Positions 8,236 through 14,927 of a DNA stretch of 42,632 nt are shown here, piece by piece. Below the pieces are notes generated by a model. It saw only the letters and a program-made list of their open reading frames with translations. It was not told the origin of the DNA and ran no database searches. Source of the DNA: Deltaproteobacteria bacterium (lineage in GTDB: Bacteria; Myxococcota; Myxococcia; SLRQ01); contig JARGFU010000035.1 of the NCBI GenBank assembly GCA_029210625.1, positions 909 through 43,540 on the forward strand. The letters run 5' to 3'. A program made the translations under genes and the position numbers. Within the stretch, counting starts at the first letter, position 1, and each line of letters begins with the position of its first letter.

Positions 8236-10038
8236 CTACATCTCGAGGCTGTCCAGGGCGAGGTCCTCGACGTCTTCCAGCTCGTCGTCCTCGAACTCCT
8301 CGAGCTCGTCCATGCCGTCGTCGCCGCCGAGGTCCGCGACCTCGCCGAGGCCCTCGTCGTCGTCCACGACCGAGGCCGGAGCCTCGTCGAGGAGGGAGAG
8401 GCCGACCTCGAGGGCCTTGCGGATGCGCTCGCGGAGCTGCTCCTCGCCCTTGAGGTTCTGGTAGGCCTTCAGCAGCCGGTCCTCGTGCTTCCTGTTCTCG
8501 CTCTCGAGGGTCTGGACCTTCTCCTCCAGCTCCTCGATCTGAGCGGCCGCGGCCTGGGCCTCGGCCAGCTCGGACTCCAGCTCGCCGATGCGGCCGCGGG
8601 CGTCGGAGGCCTCGCTGGAGGCCTCGGCGACGCGCTGCCCCAGCTCGGCCACCTGGCCCTCGAGCGCAGCGGACTGGCTCCGGGCCTCCTCGAGGGAAGC
8701 CTCCAGCTCGCTCACCCGGCGGGCCGCGTCCTGGGCGGCCACGAGCTCGCCCTGGAGCTCCTCCATGCGGGCGCCCTGCTCGTCGGCCTTCTCCTCGAAG
8801 GTCTTGGCGTTGGCCTCGGCGGTCATGGCCCGCTCCTCGAGGTCCACGGCCTTCAGCTCGAGCTCGTTCTCCTTCTCCTGCCAGTCGAGGGCGGCCTTCT
8901 CCTTCTCGTTGAGCTCCTCCTTCAGGGAGAGGATCTCCTTGTCCTTGGCGGTCAGCTCGCCCTTGAGCCGGATGACGTCCTTGTTGGAGGCAGCGCCGCC
9001 GCCACTCTTGAAGGCCTCGAGCTCGTTGGTCTTCGCCCGCAGCTCGTCCTGCACGCTCGAGAGCTTGCCGGCGGCCTCGTCGCGCTCCTTGCGGAGCTTG
9101 GCGAGCTCCTCCTCGAGTCCAGCCACCTTGACCGCAGCGCCGGCGCCGCCGGTCTCGCGCGGGGGAGGGGCCTCCATCTCCAGCTCGGGGAGCCCGTCGA
9201 TCTCCTCTTCTTCCTCCTCCTCGAACTCGGACCCGAAGTCGGGGTCGAAGTCGGGCTCGGCCTCCGCCTCGGGCTCCAGGTCCTCGACCTCGTCGAGGAC
9301 GTCGAGGAGCTCGTCCTCGGCCCCGGCCTCGGCGGCGAAGTCCTCGAGCTCCTCGAGGCCGTCGGAGTCCAGATCGTCGCCCAGGTCCTCCAGGGACTCC
9401 AGAGCGTCGAGCTCGTCGTCCTCCTCGGCCTCTCCGAGCAGGTCGAGGGCCTCGTCCTCCTCGTCCTCCTCGTCCATCGCGCCCAGGGCGTCGATGGCCA
9501 GATCCGCGGACTCGGCATCGTCGGCCGAGGAGTCATCCCCCATCTCCAGGGCGTCCAGGGCGATGTCCTCGATGCCGTCTCCGCCGCCTCCCCCGTCGAC
9601 CTCCAGGCCCTCGAGGGCCTCGTCGAGGAGGTCGATCTCGTCGTCGAGGGTGGCGTCACCCTCGCCCAGGCCGATCAGCCCGTTGACCTTCTCGACCACC
9701 TCTTCCGCCTCGCAGGGCTTGATGACGTACTCCTCGGCCCTCGTCTTGAGCTTCTTGTGCTGCTCGAAGGTCTTGGGGGTCGCCTCGCTCGAGGTGATGA
9801 TCAGCGGGATGTCCTTGAGATCCGCGCTCTTCTTGAGCTTGTTGCAGACTGCGTAGCCGCTCATCTTCGGCAGCTCGACGCAGAGCACGATGGCATCGAA
9901 GCCGCCGTCGGAGGCGATGCCCGGCGCGGCCTTCCCGTCGGCGGTCTGCTCGACGGTCGCACCACGGGCTTCGAAAGCCGACTTCAGCTGACCGGCGAAC
10001 TCGTCGTCGGCCTCGATGAGGAGGATCTTCTTCGGCAT
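8236..10038 (-). CDS. FrzS-like pseudo-receiver protein with acidic linker and coiled coil
   Basis: A 600-aa protein in three parts. Residues 1-125 or so are a CheY-like receiver resembling the atypical receiver of the Myxococcus motility protein FrzS (KLKKSADLKDIPLII, FEQHKKLKTRAEEYVIKP). Residues 130-285 or so are extremely acidic Asp/Glu-Leu repeats. Residues 300-540 or so are a long heptad-rich coiled coil. An acidic C-terminus ends the protein. At the phosphorylation position the usual Asp is replaced by Cys53 (AIVLCVELPKMSG), while the conserved Lys (YVIKP) is retained, so phosphotransfer is unlikely. By analogy with FrzS and AglZ it may act as a polar or cytoskeletal scaffold. The ATG at 10038 follows GGAG; an in-frame GTG lies one codon earlier. 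Confidence 0.82.
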   Translation of the reverse strand: MPKKILLIEADDEFAGQLKSAFEARGATVEQTADGKAAPGIASDGGFDAIVLCVELPKMSGYAVCNKLKKSADLKDIPLIITSSEATPKTFEQHKKLKTRAEEYVIKPCEAEEVVEKVNGLIGLGEGDATLDDEIDLLDEALEGLEVDGGGGGDGIEDIALDALEMGDDSSADDAESADLAIDALGAMDEEDEEDEALDLLGEAEEDDELDALESLEDLGDDLDSDGLEELEDFAAEAGAEDELLDVLDEVEDLEPEAEAEPDFDPDFGSEFEEEEEEEIDGLPELEMEAPPPRETGGAGAAVKVAGLEEELAKLRKERDEAAGKLSSVQDELRAKTNELEAFKSGGGAASNKDVIRLKGELTAKDKEILSLKEELNEKEKAALDWQEKENELELKAVDLEERAMTAEANAKTFEEKADEQGARMEELQGELVAAQDAARRVSELEASLEEARSQSAALEGQVAELGQRVAEASSEASDARGRIGELESELAEAQAAAAQIEELEEKVQTLESENRKHEDRLLKAYQNLKGEEQLRERIRKALEVGLSLLDEAPASVVDDDEGLGEVADLGGDDGMDELEEFEDDELEDVEDLALDSLEM

Positions 10039-10194
10039 CACGACTCCGTTTCGCGGCGGGGGATCTGCCGCAAAAACACAGGAAATACGGGAGACTGGGG
10101 TCCGAAGCCGGAGTCTAACCGCGCACTCCGAGGCGGGTCAACGATTCGACCTCCCCCGCCATGGGGCCGGGAGAGGGTCCAAACCCGCGAAAGA

Positions 10195-11061
10195 TCAGCG
10201 GCTGCCGGCGTCGACGAGGCGCAGCAGGGTCGACTCGTCGAGGTCGGAGACCAGGGAGTAGACGATGCCCTGATCCCGCCACATCACCACGTTGTAGCCC
10301 CGCCGGTTCACCAGGACGACCTCGTGGTCACCCACCCGGCGCACCCTCTCCCGGGCCACCGGGAGGTGGGGGTGCTCGCCCTCGGCGAAGAGGAAGAGCC
10401 CCGCCCGGCCACCGCCGGGCTCCTGGTAGGCGAGGTAGACCGCCGGGCGGTCCAGGACGTGCGAGAGGCGGGCCCCGACGGGCTGCAGCGCGGAGCGGAA
10501 GTGCGGCACGCGGGGGTTGAAGTCGACCTTGCCGCGGGCCCAGCCCCGCACCTGGGCGGGATCCGGGGTGTCGAGCTCGAGGGGGAGGGCGCGGGCGTGG
10601 CGCGTGACGGCGTCCTCGACCAGGTCCTCCTCCGAGCTCGAGCTGGCGCCGAAGCCACCCCCGGCCACCCAGACGAAGAGGGCCAGGGCGGCCGCGGAGG
10701 CCATCACCGGAAGCCGCCGGGTCCAGCGGGCCTGGGCGAGGGGGACGACCTTCGAGTCACGGCCGGGCGGGGGCCCGAAGAGGCGCTCGTCCTCGGCCGT
10801 GGGAGGGAGGTCGAAGTCGACGGAGTCGAGGGCCGCGGCGACGCGCTCCCCGAGGGAGGCGGGGGCCTTCACCTCGGAGGCGGCCGAGAGGAGGCGGGCG
10901 GAGACCTGGGCGCGCTCCTCGAGGTGGTGGCGGCAGACCTCGCAGTCCTCGAGGTGGGCCTCGAGCTCGCGCTGCTCCTCGGCGCCGAGCTCACCGTCGA
11001 GGAAGAGCTCGATGAGCTCCTGCTCGTCGCGGCAGCCGAGCTGGAAGGTCGCCTCAACCAT
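10195..11061 (-). CDS. Membrane-anchored anti-sigma factor with zinc-binding (ZAS) domain
   Basis: A 288-aa protein. The N-terminal anti-sigma fold carries Cys10, then His36-x3-Cys40-x2-Cys43, the ZAS zinc motif. This spacing equals Cys11-His37-Cys41-Cys44 of the redox sensor RsrA. Residues 117-137 or so are hydrophobic and form a likely transmembrane helix (preceded by TRR), which leaves about 150 residues outside the cytoplasm. RsrA itself is soluble, so this is a hybrid design: cytoplasmic sigma-binding head, membrane anchor, periplasmic domain of unknown function. The start overlaps the sigma-factor stop by 8 nt, so the two are translated together. Confidence 0.88.
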   Translation of the reverse strand: MVEATFQLGCRDEQELIELFLDGELGAEEQRELEAHLEDCEVCRHHLEERAQVSARLLSAASEVKAPASLGERVAAALDSVDFDLPPTAEDERLFGPPPGRDSKVVPLAQARWTRRLPVMASAAALALFVWVAGGGFGASSSSEEDLVEDAVTRHARALPLELDTPDPAQVRGWARGKVDFNPRVPHFRSALQPVGARLSHVLDRPAVYLAYQEPGGGRAGLFLFAEGEHPHLPVARERVRRVGDHEVVLVNRRGYNVVMWRDQGIVYSLVSDLDESTLLRLVDAGSR

Positions 11062-11725
11062 GGCGGCCTCCCCGGTAGTCGGCGAGGGGGGTCACCGAGG
11101 CGCCCTCGCTCTCGGCGGCGGGCTCGCGGGCCACGATGCCCTGCTCCTGGGCGTAGGCGCGCAGCCGCTTCTGCAGCAGGCGGCGGCCCCGGAAGAGGCG
11201 GCTCATCACCGTGCCCACGGGACAGCCGACGATCTCGGCGATCTCCTTGTAGGCGAAGTCCTGGAGGTCCGCGAGGATGACCACCATCCGGAAGTCGATG
11301 GGGACCTCGTCGAGGGCGTGGAGGACCTCGGCCGAGACCATCTGGTCGAGGATGGCCTTCTCGGGGTCCCGCGAGCTGCTGCTCACCTTCGCCGAGATGC
11401 TCCGGGCTCGCACCGTGGCCTGCTCGGCGCCCTCGACGGCGTTGCGCTCCCGGCCCTTGCGCCGGTAGGCGTTGATGAAGGTGTTGGTGAGGATCTTGAA
11501 GAGCCAGGCCTTGATGTTGGTGCCCTGCTCGAAGCGGTCGAAGAAGCGGTAGGCCCGGACCAGGGCGTCCTGGACCAGATCCTGGGCGTCACCCTCGTCC
11601 CGGGTCAGCCGCAGCGCCGCGCCGTAGAGGGCGTCGAGGTGGGGCAGGGCCTGGGCCTCGAAGGCCGCCCGGGTCTGGGGGTCCCAGGCGCGATCCTCTC
11701 CCCTGCGCTTGCCGCTCTTTGCCAT
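11054..11725 (-). CDS. ECF-type RNA polymerase sigma factor
   Basis: A 223-aa group 4 sigma factor. Region 2 is visible as DEGDAQDLVQDALVRAYRFF followed by IKAWLFKILTNTFINAYRR. Region 4 contains DLQDFAYKEIAEIVGCPVGT then VMSRLFRGRRLLQKRL, the helix-turn-helix that reads the -35 element. The long, mobile-looking linker (SISAKVSSSSRDPEKAI) is usual for ECF factors. It is followed at once by the anti-sigma gene, the standard layout for a sigma/anti-sigma switch, and resembles the SigR/RsrA and SigH/RshA group in architecture. The preceding 90 bases contain a promoter candidate that suggests autoregulation. Confidence 0.95.
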   Translation of the reverse strand: MAKSGKRRGEDRAWDPQTRAAFEAQALPHLDALYGAALRLTRDEGDAQDLVQDALVRAYRFFDRFEQGTNIKAWLFKILTNTFINAYRRKGRERNAVEGAEQATVRARSISAKVSSSSRDPEKAILDQMVSAEVLHALDEVPIDFRMVVILADLQDFAYKEIAEIVGCPVGTVMSRLFRGRRLLQKRLRAYAQEQGIVAREPAAESEGASVTPLADYRGGRHG

Positions 11726-11774
11726 GACGTGAAGGGTCCTCCGGAAGGGCCGTACAGCTGCACTTTCCCACGAA

Positions 11775-11800
11775 AACCCCCCATCCGAGGAGGTATTCCC
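11775..11800 (-). promoter_or_regulatory. Candidate ECF autoregulatory promoter (GGGAAT-N17-GTT)
   Basis: Reading the minus strand, GGGAAT (11800-11795) is followed after 17 nt by GTT (11777-11775), ending 49 nt before the sigma-factor ATG. This nearly matches the GGGAAT-N18-GTT consensus of the SigR/SigH family, whose members often drive their own operon. The match is short and the spacer is one base off, so this remains a prediction. Confidence 0.4.
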
Positions 11801-13011: not shown

Positions 13012-13845
13012 ATGAGCGCCGGGCGCCGCCGAGAACCGAGACCCCTCGCCGAGGCCCCCCGCGCCCGGCTGGCCCGGGTCCGGGGGATCTGCTTCGACAT
13101 CGACGACACCTTCTCCACCGAGGGGAAGATCCGCCCGGTGGCCTACGCGGCGCTCTGGCGCGCCCACCGGGCGGGCTTAGGGCTCGCCGCGGTCACCGGG
13201 CGCCCGGCCGGGTGGTGCGATCACCTCGCCCGGATGTGGCCGATCGACGCGGTCGTGGGAGAGAACGGGGCCTTCTACTTCGCCCACGACGCCCAGGCGC
13301 GCCGCCTCGTCCGTCGCTACGTGCAGAGCGAGGCCGAGCGGGCCGAGGGGCGGGTGCGGCTGGAGCGGGCGCGGGAGGCGGTGCTGGCGGCCGTCCCCGG
13401 GGCCCGGATCTCGGCGGACCAGCCCTTCCGGATCGCCGATCTGGCGGTCGACTTCGCCGAGGACGTGGGGCCCCTCCCCGACGCCGACATCGACCGCATC
13501 GTCGAGGTGCTCGAGGCGCACGGCGCCACCTGCAAGGTCTCCTCGATCCACGTGAACGCCTACTTCGGCCGCTACGACAAGCGCGGGATGCTCCTGGAGC
13601 TCGCCCGCGAGCGCTGGGGGCTCTCGGCCGACGCGGCGGCCCGGAGCCTGGCCTACGTGGGGGACTCCCCCAACGACGAGCCGCTCTTCGCCGCCTTCGA
13701 GCTCTCGGTGGGGGTCGCCAACGTCCGGCCGATGCTCCCCCGGATGGCGCACCCGCCCCGCTACGTGACGCGCGGCAAGGGAGGGGCGGGCTTCGCCGAG
13801 CTGGTCCGGGCGATCCTCGCGGCTAGGGCGCCGAATAGAGGCTGA
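13012..13845 (+). CDS. HAD-superfamily (Cof/type IIB) phosphatase
   Basis: A 277-aa hydrolase. Motif I is DIDDT with the nucleophile at Asp29 and the acid at Asp31. The second motif region reads AVTGRP. The conserved Lys lies in YDKRGML, and motif IV is GDSPNDEP. The large cap between motifs II and III places it in subclass IIB, with sugar-phosphate phosphatases such as mannosyl-3-phosphoglycerate or sucrose-phosphate phosphatase; the substrate cannot be read. The ATG has TAGGAAC upstream. It is divergent from ald, with 83 bp between them, and its end overlaps the convergent DsbA-like gene by 23 nt. Confidence 0.85.
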
Positions 13846-14746
13846 CCCGGCCGATCTTCTGGCGGACGAGGTTGCCGCCGGCGCACTGCCGGTCGAGGAA
13901 GTCGGCGGCGTCGCCCGGCTCGATGTCCAGGAGGGTGGCGAACTCGGCCACCGTGATCGAGCCGCGGGCCGAGGCCAGCGACCGGGCGTAGGCGCTGCGG
14001 TTCTCGACGTCGGCGGGATCCGCGAGGAGGGGGAGGGCGTCGTCGTAGGCCTCGGAGAGGGCCGCGACCAGCGCCTGGAAGGGCCGGGAGCCCCTCACGG
14101 TGACCACGCCGCCCCCGCCGCTGAAGTGGTAGGTCGGGCAGCTCACGCCCCCCAGCGCCGCCGCCCGGTCGAGGTCGGCCTTGAAGAGGGCGCCGGCCGC
14201 CCCGCTCTCGAGGTCGCGGGCGAGGCGATCGACGTCCAGGTCGCAGGCGCCCGCCAGCTCCAGGAGCTCCGTGGCGTCCGCCAGGTCCTTGCGGTGGCAG
14301 ATCACCGCCTCCCGGCACCGGCGCAGGTAGAGCTCGCCCCCCACCGGGTCGGCCGCGAGGGCGGCGGCGATGGCCGCGCAGGCGGGCCAGGAGGTCATCG
14401 GCGGCGCCTCCAGCCAGCGGTCCGCGTCGAGGGGCATCCGGGTCAGGTGGGCGATCTCCTCCCACTGCATGGCCATCCGGTGCGGATCCGAGAGCCCGCC
14501 CCCGAGGCGCTCCCCGGAAGCCGTGTCCCGGATCAGACCCACCATCCGGAAGCGCACCTGGAGGAAGCTGCCGAAGGTCTCGCAGAGCTTCACCCAGTCG
14601 GGCTGGTTGCCCCAGCACCAGGCGGAGAAGGGATCGGTGAAGACCTCGACCAGCACGGGGGCCTCGTCGTGCTCCGGGGAGGCCTCCAGCACGGCCGCCA
14701 CGGAGATCGCCGGGTGATGCCTGGATGCGTCGATGCTCGAGCTCAA
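13823..14746 (-). CDS. DsbA-family thioredoxin-fold protein (Thioredoxin_5/YjbH-like)
   Basis: A protein of about 307 aa with a DsbA-like fold. The active-site region is FTDPFSAWCWG, where the usual CxxC is reduced to SAWC, so the first, nucleophilic cysteine is Ser. The mid-region has SCPTYHF in the place of the cis-Pro loop. About 45 C-terminal residues (ITVAEFATLLDIEPGDAADF and following) look like a winged helix, as in several predicted dithiol isomerases. Loss of the first cysteine suggests an adaptor role (compare the ClpXP adaptor YjbH/SpxH) or glutathione-dependent chemistry rather than disulfide oxidation. The start is inferred as TTG at 14746, which has AGAGGAAG upstream; no in-frame ATG before the domain fits better. 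Confidence 0.75.
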   Translation of the reverse strand: MSSSIDASRHHPAISVAAVLEASPEHDEAPVLVEVFTDPFSAWCWGNQPDWVKLCETFGSFLQVRFRMVGLIRDTASGERLGGGLSDPHRMAMQWEEIAHLTRMPLDADRWLEAPPMTSWPACAAIAAALAADPVGGELYLRRCREAVICHRKDLADATELLELAGACDLDVDRLARDLESGAAGALFKADLDRAAALGGVSCPTYHFSGGGGVVTVRGSRPFQALVAALSEAYDDALPLLADPADVENRSAYARSLASARGSITVAEFATLLDIEPGDAADFLDRQCAGGNLVRQKIGRVSLYSAP

Positions 14747-14927
14747 GTGGTGCTTCCTCTGCGCTTCTGGCTCCCGCCGATCTCCCGCCGCCCGGGGCGG
14801 CGAGAACCGCAAGGGTAGCACAGACGCCGGGGGTGAAACCCGCGAGGGGCGCTGGCCCGCCCGCTTCGCGCTGACTATCATGGGAGGACGTGCGCCGGAG
14901 GCAGCACCGGGCACGAGAGAGCGGCGG

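Follow-up and report, generated by a model that had tools for sequence, protein, structure and literature searches.

A SigR/SigH-like sigma factor and a predicted membrane-anchored zinc anti-sigma factor in Myxococcota: a candidate envelope-stress system

The sigma and anti-sigma genes and their relatives

In the analysed stretch of DNA (the window, 42,632 nucleotides from a Deltaproteobacteria bacterium of the GTDB class Myxococcia), a gene encoding an ECF sigma factor lies directly before a gene encoding a zinc-type anti-sigma factor that is predicted to be anchored in the membrane. The features of the locus are as follows.

11054-11725, minus strand: sigma gene, ECF, SigR/SigH-like, 223 aa (TIGR02947, SigH structure match and tree)
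10195-11061, minus strand: anti-sigma gene, predicted membrane-anchored, zinc-type, 288 aa
10930-11034, minus strand: zf-HC2 (ZAS) motif, residues 10-44 (Pfam E 1.2e-9), expected ligands C10, H36, C40 and C43
10651-10710, minus strand: predicted transmembrane helix, about residues 118-137 (Kyte-Doolittle peak; low-confidence modelled helix)
10198-10632, minus strand: C-terminal domain, residues 144-288, presumably periplasmic, with a modelled fold similar to the RseB/MucB C-terminal domain
11775-11800, minus strand: SigR-type promoter-like site GGGAAT-N17-GTT, probably autoregulatory

The sigma gene overlaps the start of the anti-sigma gene by 8 bases. The class was searched for the anti-sigma factor in 58 genomes (the own genome and the rest of its class), and a match was present in 56 of them, own genome included; 41 orthologous loci from the 55 other genomes with a match were examined, and the two genes were side by side in all 41. 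The gene that comes after the anti-sigma gene encodes a FrzS-like response regulator (8236-10041, minus strand; match to the FrzS receiver 2gkg, E 1.9e-26), and the neighbourhood ald, sigma, anti-sigma and frzS-like is widely retained, with the FrzS-like gene in 40/41 loci and alanine dehydrogenase in 28/41. FrzS of M. xanthus is given as MXAN_4149 in the available part of PMC4546325. The pair might be linked to motility. Elsewhere in the window, the product of an ORF at 13823-14914 (minus strand) had by eye the look of a DsbA-family thioredoxin-fold protein.

For the sigma factor, TIGR02947 was the best of 85 NCBIfam families, although its score of 195.1 bits was under the cut-off of 251.55. 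The best solved relative was SigH of M. tuberculosis (E 4.1e-49), which scored 170.3 bits compared to 75.6 bits for SigW.

Relatives in named genomes were collected by a scan with the sigma alignment, in which the best 80 of at least 585 relatives were kept and 74 loci were used; the scan is a sample and not a census, since one of two short peptide patterns was required. A partner was defined as a gene beside the sigma gene whose product contains HX3CX2C, and was counted as membrane type if it exceeded 150 aa and had a hydrophobic stretch scoring more than 1.2. Under this rule, among the 74 loci from the best 80 of at least 585 relatives, 19 had a membrane partner (197-357 aa), 53 a soluble partner (74-133 aa) and 2 no partner.

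The sigma tree contained 105 sequences: the window sigma, 26 of the 41 orthologues, the 74 named sigmas among the matches listed and four paralogues from the own genome. L089, L090, L093, L094, L097 and L116 were left out, together with 15 of the 41 Myxococcia sigmas. The starred branch (98/94) held 47 rows, nearly all from Myxococcota among the matches listed, of which 45 had a membrane partner and 2 none. The neighbouring group (83/73) was made up of 47 soluble-partner rows, 46 from Actinomycetota and one from Chloroflexota among the matches listed, and the two clades joined at a fork (89/90) that was not starred. Outside both clades, again among the matches listed, were six Acidobacteriota rows with soluble partners and one Nitrospinota row with a membrane partner. 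In this tree the Myxococcota sigmas are predicted to sit as a clade next to actinobacterial SigR, and almost every one sampled has a membrane-anchored partner. With TIGR02947 as best family and SigH as best solved relative, the window sigma is SigR-like.

A Nitrospinae record (L122) encodes a SigR-like sigma factor beside a membrane-type CHCC partner with the same C-terminal domain; the membrane form of the anti-sigma factor may be old, since this record falls outside both main clades. In the available part of a review, ECF270 is listed with Acidobacteria and a member from Anaeromyxobacter dehalogenans (PMC8999054).

The zinc domain, the membrane helix and the outer domain

The sequence and ORF translation of the anti-sigma factor gave the motif C10, H36, C40 and C43 (C-X25-H-X3-C-X2-C), exactly as previously described, and C10, C40 and C43 are its only cysteines. 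The zf-HC2 profile matched at 38.5 bits (cut-off 22.2) over positions 1-35 of 35, with Cys10 at profile position 1. HX3CX2C with an upstream Cys or His, in a gene adjoining that of an ECF sigma factor, is the pattern of the ZAS/zf-HC2 proteins and was found here; by its sequence the protein belongs to the ZAS anti-sigma factors, and zinc and sigma binding are predicted for it.

The N-terminal Cys was retained in 41/41 orthologues, so that loss of Cys10 among homologues, the outcome that would have counted against the redox reading, was not found. The exact C-X25-H-X3-C-X2-C was present in 39/41, while L049 and L059 have the Cys at a spacing other than X25. In an alignment of 27 anti-sigmas, all with a zf-HC2 match (E up to 5), C10, H36, C40 and C43 were invariant.

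The CHCC spacing was rejected as evidence of a redox switch: it belongs to the zf-HC2 profile as a whole and does not single out RsrA. The RsrA equivalog TIGR03988 scored 39.2 bits against the window anti-sigma, below its cut-off of 62.5. For the single protein, the best solved relative by sequence was RsiW (5wuq, E 9.2e-7), while a profile of 27 orthologues was about equally near to RsiW (E 2e-9) and to RsrA (5frf, E 5.6e-9). The N-terminal Cys ligand of RsrA was found throughout the orthologues; the soluble, single-domain form of RsrA was not found, the protein having 288 aa, a predicted helix and a C-terminal domain.

RsrA residues E39, E40, L45 and E46 contribute to redox sensitivity according to the available part of PMC5358783, which cites other work for this. 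At these places the window anti-sigma has E, D, R and H, of which E38 and D39 match the acidic pair and the other two do not match. The 41 orthologues carry A/S in 32, G/A/T in 29, R in 20 and A/R in 26, respectively. The 53 soluble partners among the matches listed have D/E in 27, D/E in 35, L in 28 and D/E in 32, and the 16 other membrane partners among the matches listed are mixed, with E46 kept in 7. The full set of tuning residues was thus found neither in the window protein nor in most orthologues. The core and sigma-binding positions of RsrA are largely retained in the window (I, F, L, L; V, V, L), with R at the place of L57. The earlier suggestion that RsrA-like spacing implies a redox switch is not supported by these comparisons: zf-HC2 proteins in general have this spacing, the redox-insensitive RsiW carries almost the same motif, and the tuning residues are mostly absent in orthologues.

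After the zinc domain, a hydrophobic peak was present at residues 119-137 (Kyte-Doolittle 1.87), with about 150 residues after it; the modelled helix at 118-133 had low model confidence. A 19-residue hydrophobic stretch was found in all 41 orthologous anti-sigmas (at least 1.15 in all and at least 1.3 in 40; peaks 1.15-2.46). The C-terminal domain contained seven invariant residues in the alignment of 27. Its HMM matched all 19 non-duplicate named membrane partners among the matches listed with E values of at most 5.1e-8; the 53 soluble partners among the matches listed gave nothing better than E 1.2. The predicted architecture is that of RsiW, with a CHCC domain, one membrane helix and an outer domain. 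A membrane helix leading into a periplasmic domain, as first described, agrees with the predicted helix and the conserved domain, and we infer that the C-terminal domain lies on the periplasmic side.

Two AlphaFold2 models (mean pLDDT 83.3 and 86.4) gave a similar C-terminal domain. With the first model, VIA-align ranks 1-6 were RseB/MucB C-terminal domains (3m4w_A, Z 8.7, rmsd 2.9, 94 aligned), and every Foldseek match had an E value above 0.001. With the second, ranks 2-7 were RseB/MucB (2v43_C, Z 8.4, rmsd 3.1, 96 aligned) behind the unrelated TM1622 (1vr8, Z 9.5), and the N-terminal domain matched the RslA structure 3hug_F (Z 6.1, rmsd 3.3, 55 aligned). The RseB-like fold is taken as a lead, since Z near 8 is typical of common arrangements. 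No homology to RseB was found at the sequence level by the family scan and the profile search of 27 members: MucB_RseB_C was absent from the 16 families matching the 27 anti-sigmas up to E 5, and MucB_RseB_C (PF17188) had no match in the 58 genomes of the class, the E. coli control being positive. DUF4367 gave weak matches in 12/27 members (best E 0.0017).

The promoter motif and candidate targets

The SigR consensus is GGAAT-N18-GTT. In the window, GGGAAT-N17-GTT lies with its end 49 bases upstream of the sigma ATG, a SigR/SigH-type promoter-like site at the sigma factor's own gene with a spacer of N17. It is the only match in the window (0.08 expected; 8/100 shuffles contained one). GGAAT-N16-18-GT[TCA] was found upstream of 36/42 sigma genes, the window's included (shuffles 1.9%), and the strict GGAAT-N17/18-GTT upstream of 17/42 (shuffles 0.4%), 16 with N18 and the window with N17. 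Outside family f2 all sites at sigma genes were N18 except the N17 of the window, and in family f2, 19 of 23 members had N17 with GTC or GTA. A chance match was rejected because of the conservation at orthologues and the spacer controls, and the site near the SigR consensus that the preliminary description placed before the operon is confirmed. In other phyla, a GGAAT-type site at the own sigma gene was observed in 11/16 membrane-partner and 25/53 soluble-partner loci among the matches listed, counts which may be too low because the start anchor used for them failed at the Myxococcia loci L057 and L068. In most f2 loci (L064-L087) the distance from the GGAAT element down to the sigma gene is about 60 bases greater than in other loci, and the interval contains a second stretch that looks conserved, perhaps another promoter.

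The best-conserved candidate target is a tandem DsbA gene. Strict GGAAT-N17/18-GTT was found within 400 bases upstream of it in 35/51 genomes (shuffles 0.46%), a count that covers 51 of the 58 genomes and whose misses may be partly false, three starts having been estimated far from the match. Of these sites, 29 were N18 and 6 were N17; every other spacer length between 10 and 25 gave one site or none. Counted by genera, the site was present in 9/23 and missing in 14/23. G006 and G053, the genomes without an anti-sigma match, were checked apart, and the dsbA site was missing there too. The dsbA site occurred in 24/34 genomes with a sigma-promoter site and in 0/6 without one (n=40; Fisher p 0.002, kinship ignored).

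Genome-wide, N17/18 sites outnumbered N13/14 sites by 38:11 in G000, 42:12 in G018 and 43:12 in G034, with no excess in G042 of family f2 (110:105); N13/14 was the one alternative pair used as a control. The own genome contained 38 sites, 30 of them with a downstream ORF by rule; 19 proteins besides the sigma factor were scanned with Pfam and the rest were judged by eye. Envelope-type candidates from Pfam were a DegP-type protease, two PspA proteins, two YkuD proteins (L,D-transpeptidases) and TolQ/ExbB; a rhodanese, M28 and S8 peptidases and MoxR were further Pfam candidates. Non-envelope candidates were trigger factor, deformylase and CarD (Pfam) and a GyrB-like protein (by eye). Many own-genome sites fall in possible coding frames, a crude flag that also marks the sigma factor's own site. 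The 19 downstream proteins scanned with Pfam included neither a cytoplasmic thioredoxin nor a thioredoxin reductase or an Msr.

Candidates common to two genomes of genus g7 were a PBP1-type protein, an SLT-LysM transglycosylase, a metallophosphoesterase, a trypsin-like protease, an exported-looking protein and isocitrate dehydrogenase; for the SLT-LysM and isocitrate dehydrogenase pairs, the site distances were unlike between the genomes. A DegP site was present in 4/30 loci (matches ranked 1, 3, 4 and 5; families f1, f5 and f7), and DegP orthology is doubtful because most f2 genomes carry several homologues. The own-genome PspA-family genes L208 and L215 have GGAAT-N17/18-GTT 142 and 222 bases upstream. 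PspA was rejected as a conserved target: the site was present in 1/2 orthologues, being missing in the G001 orthologue of the second PspA gene (75% identical), and the matches in other genomes were distant. DegP, PspA, PBP1 and L,D-transpeptidases are candidate targets less conserved than dsbA.

Proposed mechanism, alternatives and comparison with known systems

The pair is best explained as a SigR-family sigma factor turned to envelope stress, probably freed by proteolysis of its membrane anti-sigma factor, with zinc in a mainly structural role. The cytoplasmic zinc-finger domain would hold the sigma factor, and the membrane helix would link this domain to a periplasmic RseB/MucB-like domain sensing envelope trouble. 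By analogy with RsiW and RseA, a signal would open the anti-sigma factor to site-1 and then intramembrane proteolysis. Once free, the sigma factor would use GGAAT-N17/18-GTT promoters to express its own operon together with genes for envelope quality control. What was computed is the architecture, its conservation, the tree position, the conserved promoter and the candidate targets; we infer the membrane topology, the binding of zinc, the proteolysis, the signal and the reading of target promoters by this sigma factor. Zinc at C10/H36/C40/C43 is presumed to be mainly structural in the best reading. In the available part of a survey, HX3CX2C is present in about 48% of the class I anti-sigmas that are bound to the membrane, and a structural role is argued for mixed groups (PMC7406223).

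A true RsrA-type thiol switch, in which a C10-C40 or C10-C43 disulfide would expel zinc and free the sigma factor while the anchor served for placement or as a second input, is improbable. The N-terminal Cys of all 41 orthologues, 39 at the exact X25, fits such a switch, as do the acidic pair E38 and D39 of the window, the largely retained core and sigma-binding positions (apart from R at the L57 place) and a profile that places the family about as near RsrA as RsiW. In the parts of PMC4960319 available, RsrA Cys11 is required and on oxidation pairs with Cys41 or Cys44, and an N-terminal Cys is argued to be necessary for oxidative release; a membrane-linked zinc anti-sigma, RslA, is likewise described as redox sensitive (PMC2877774). 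Against this stands RsiW, which according to the available text of PMC5358783 has four ligands (C3, H30, C34, C37), is membrane-bound and leaves SigW bound when the C3-C37 disulfide forms. The two sources disagree on RsiW, since PMC4960319 classes it as HHCC. Also against a thiol switch are the orthologues, mostly with A/S, G/A/T, R and A/R at the tuning places, and the lack of cytoplasmic thioredoxin, thioredoxin reductase and Msr among the 19 Pfam-scanned proteins. A thiol input into the window anti-sigma is possible, with the balance against it; the link to thiols may lie among the target genes, where the best-conserved prediction is a DsbA-type protein. It is unlikely that both inputs are combined, with the periplasmic domain and proteolysis reporting envelope damage, CHCC oxidation loosening the sigma factor inside and either one inducing a DsbA-headed SigR-family regulon, as an ancient Gram-negative SigR branch for envelope disulfide homeostasis.

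It is also rather unlikely, on a separate question, that the GGAAT-N17/18-GTT targets are read by one or more other ECF sigma factors and that the window pair controls little besides itself. The own genome has 15 further matches to the window sigma (E up to 0.001), which speaks for such readers. The sigma and dsbA promoters of f2 differ in the -10 and mostly in the spacer; another sigma factor might read dsbA there, because the sigma factor's own site is N17 with GTC/GTA and the dsbA site is GTT, mostly with N18. The co-occurrence of dsbA and sigma-promoter sites (24/34 against 0/6, kinship ignored) speaks against this, as does the same motif at SigR-like sigma genes of other phyla, including 25/53 soluble-partner loci among the matches listed. 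The envelope-stress reading itself is slightly weakened because the profile puts RsrA about level with RsiW, PMC4960319 as far as available favours the Cys, and some target distances disagree. Also counting against it are the absent N17/18 excess in G042, the 14 genera missing the dsbA site, the few DegP and PspA sites, the non-envelope genes and possible coding frames among the own-genome sites, the Z values near 8 of the RseB-like models and the low confidence of the modelled helix. Most likely the window anti-sigma is not an RsrA, its mode of action being closer to that of RsiW or RseA.

The closest characterised sigma kind is that of RsrA/SigR in Streptomyces and RshA/SigH in M. tuberculosis, with which the CHCC spacing and the GGAAT-N18-GTT promoter are alike. 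SigR/RsrA is a cytoplasmic disulfide-stress switch. RsrA is described as soluble with 105 aa (PMC4960319, in part), whereas the window anti-sigma has 288 aa with a predicted helix and outer domain, redox-tuning residues mostly lost in orthologues and candidate targets that are largely envelope genes. RsiW of B. subtilis is likewise a membrane-anchored CHCC zinc anti-sigma for envelope stress, but its SigW is more distant from the window sigma than SigH is. In the RseA-RseB and MucA-MucB systems of gammaproteobacteria, the RseB/MucB C-terminal domain resembles the modelled domain of the window, and a DegP-type protease is among the window's candidate targets; RseB is a separate protein binding RseA (PMC8103513, in the part available), whereas here the RseB-like domain would be part of the anti-sigma factor, and RseA has no zinc motif according to the available part of PMC5358783, whereas the window anti-sigma has one. 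RslA/SigL of M. tuberculosis joins a zinc anti-sigma domain to a membrane-spanning part, as here (PMC2877774, in part); RslA has HHCC ligands and shown redox sensitivity, whereas the window protein is CHCC and known from its sequence.

Within a limited literature collection, no paper joining three of SigR, RsrA, membrane-anchored and Myxococcota was found. Across the Myxococcota sampled, the lineage neighbouring SigR has a predicted membrane anchor and a sensor-like outer domain, and its promoter motif lies before envelope quality-control genes. It would represent a candidate RpoE-type envelope-stress system in a class without a MucB_RseB_C match (58 genomes), and it may offer a natural test of the conditions under which the zinc site of an anti-sigma factor responds to redox state or serves the fold alone.
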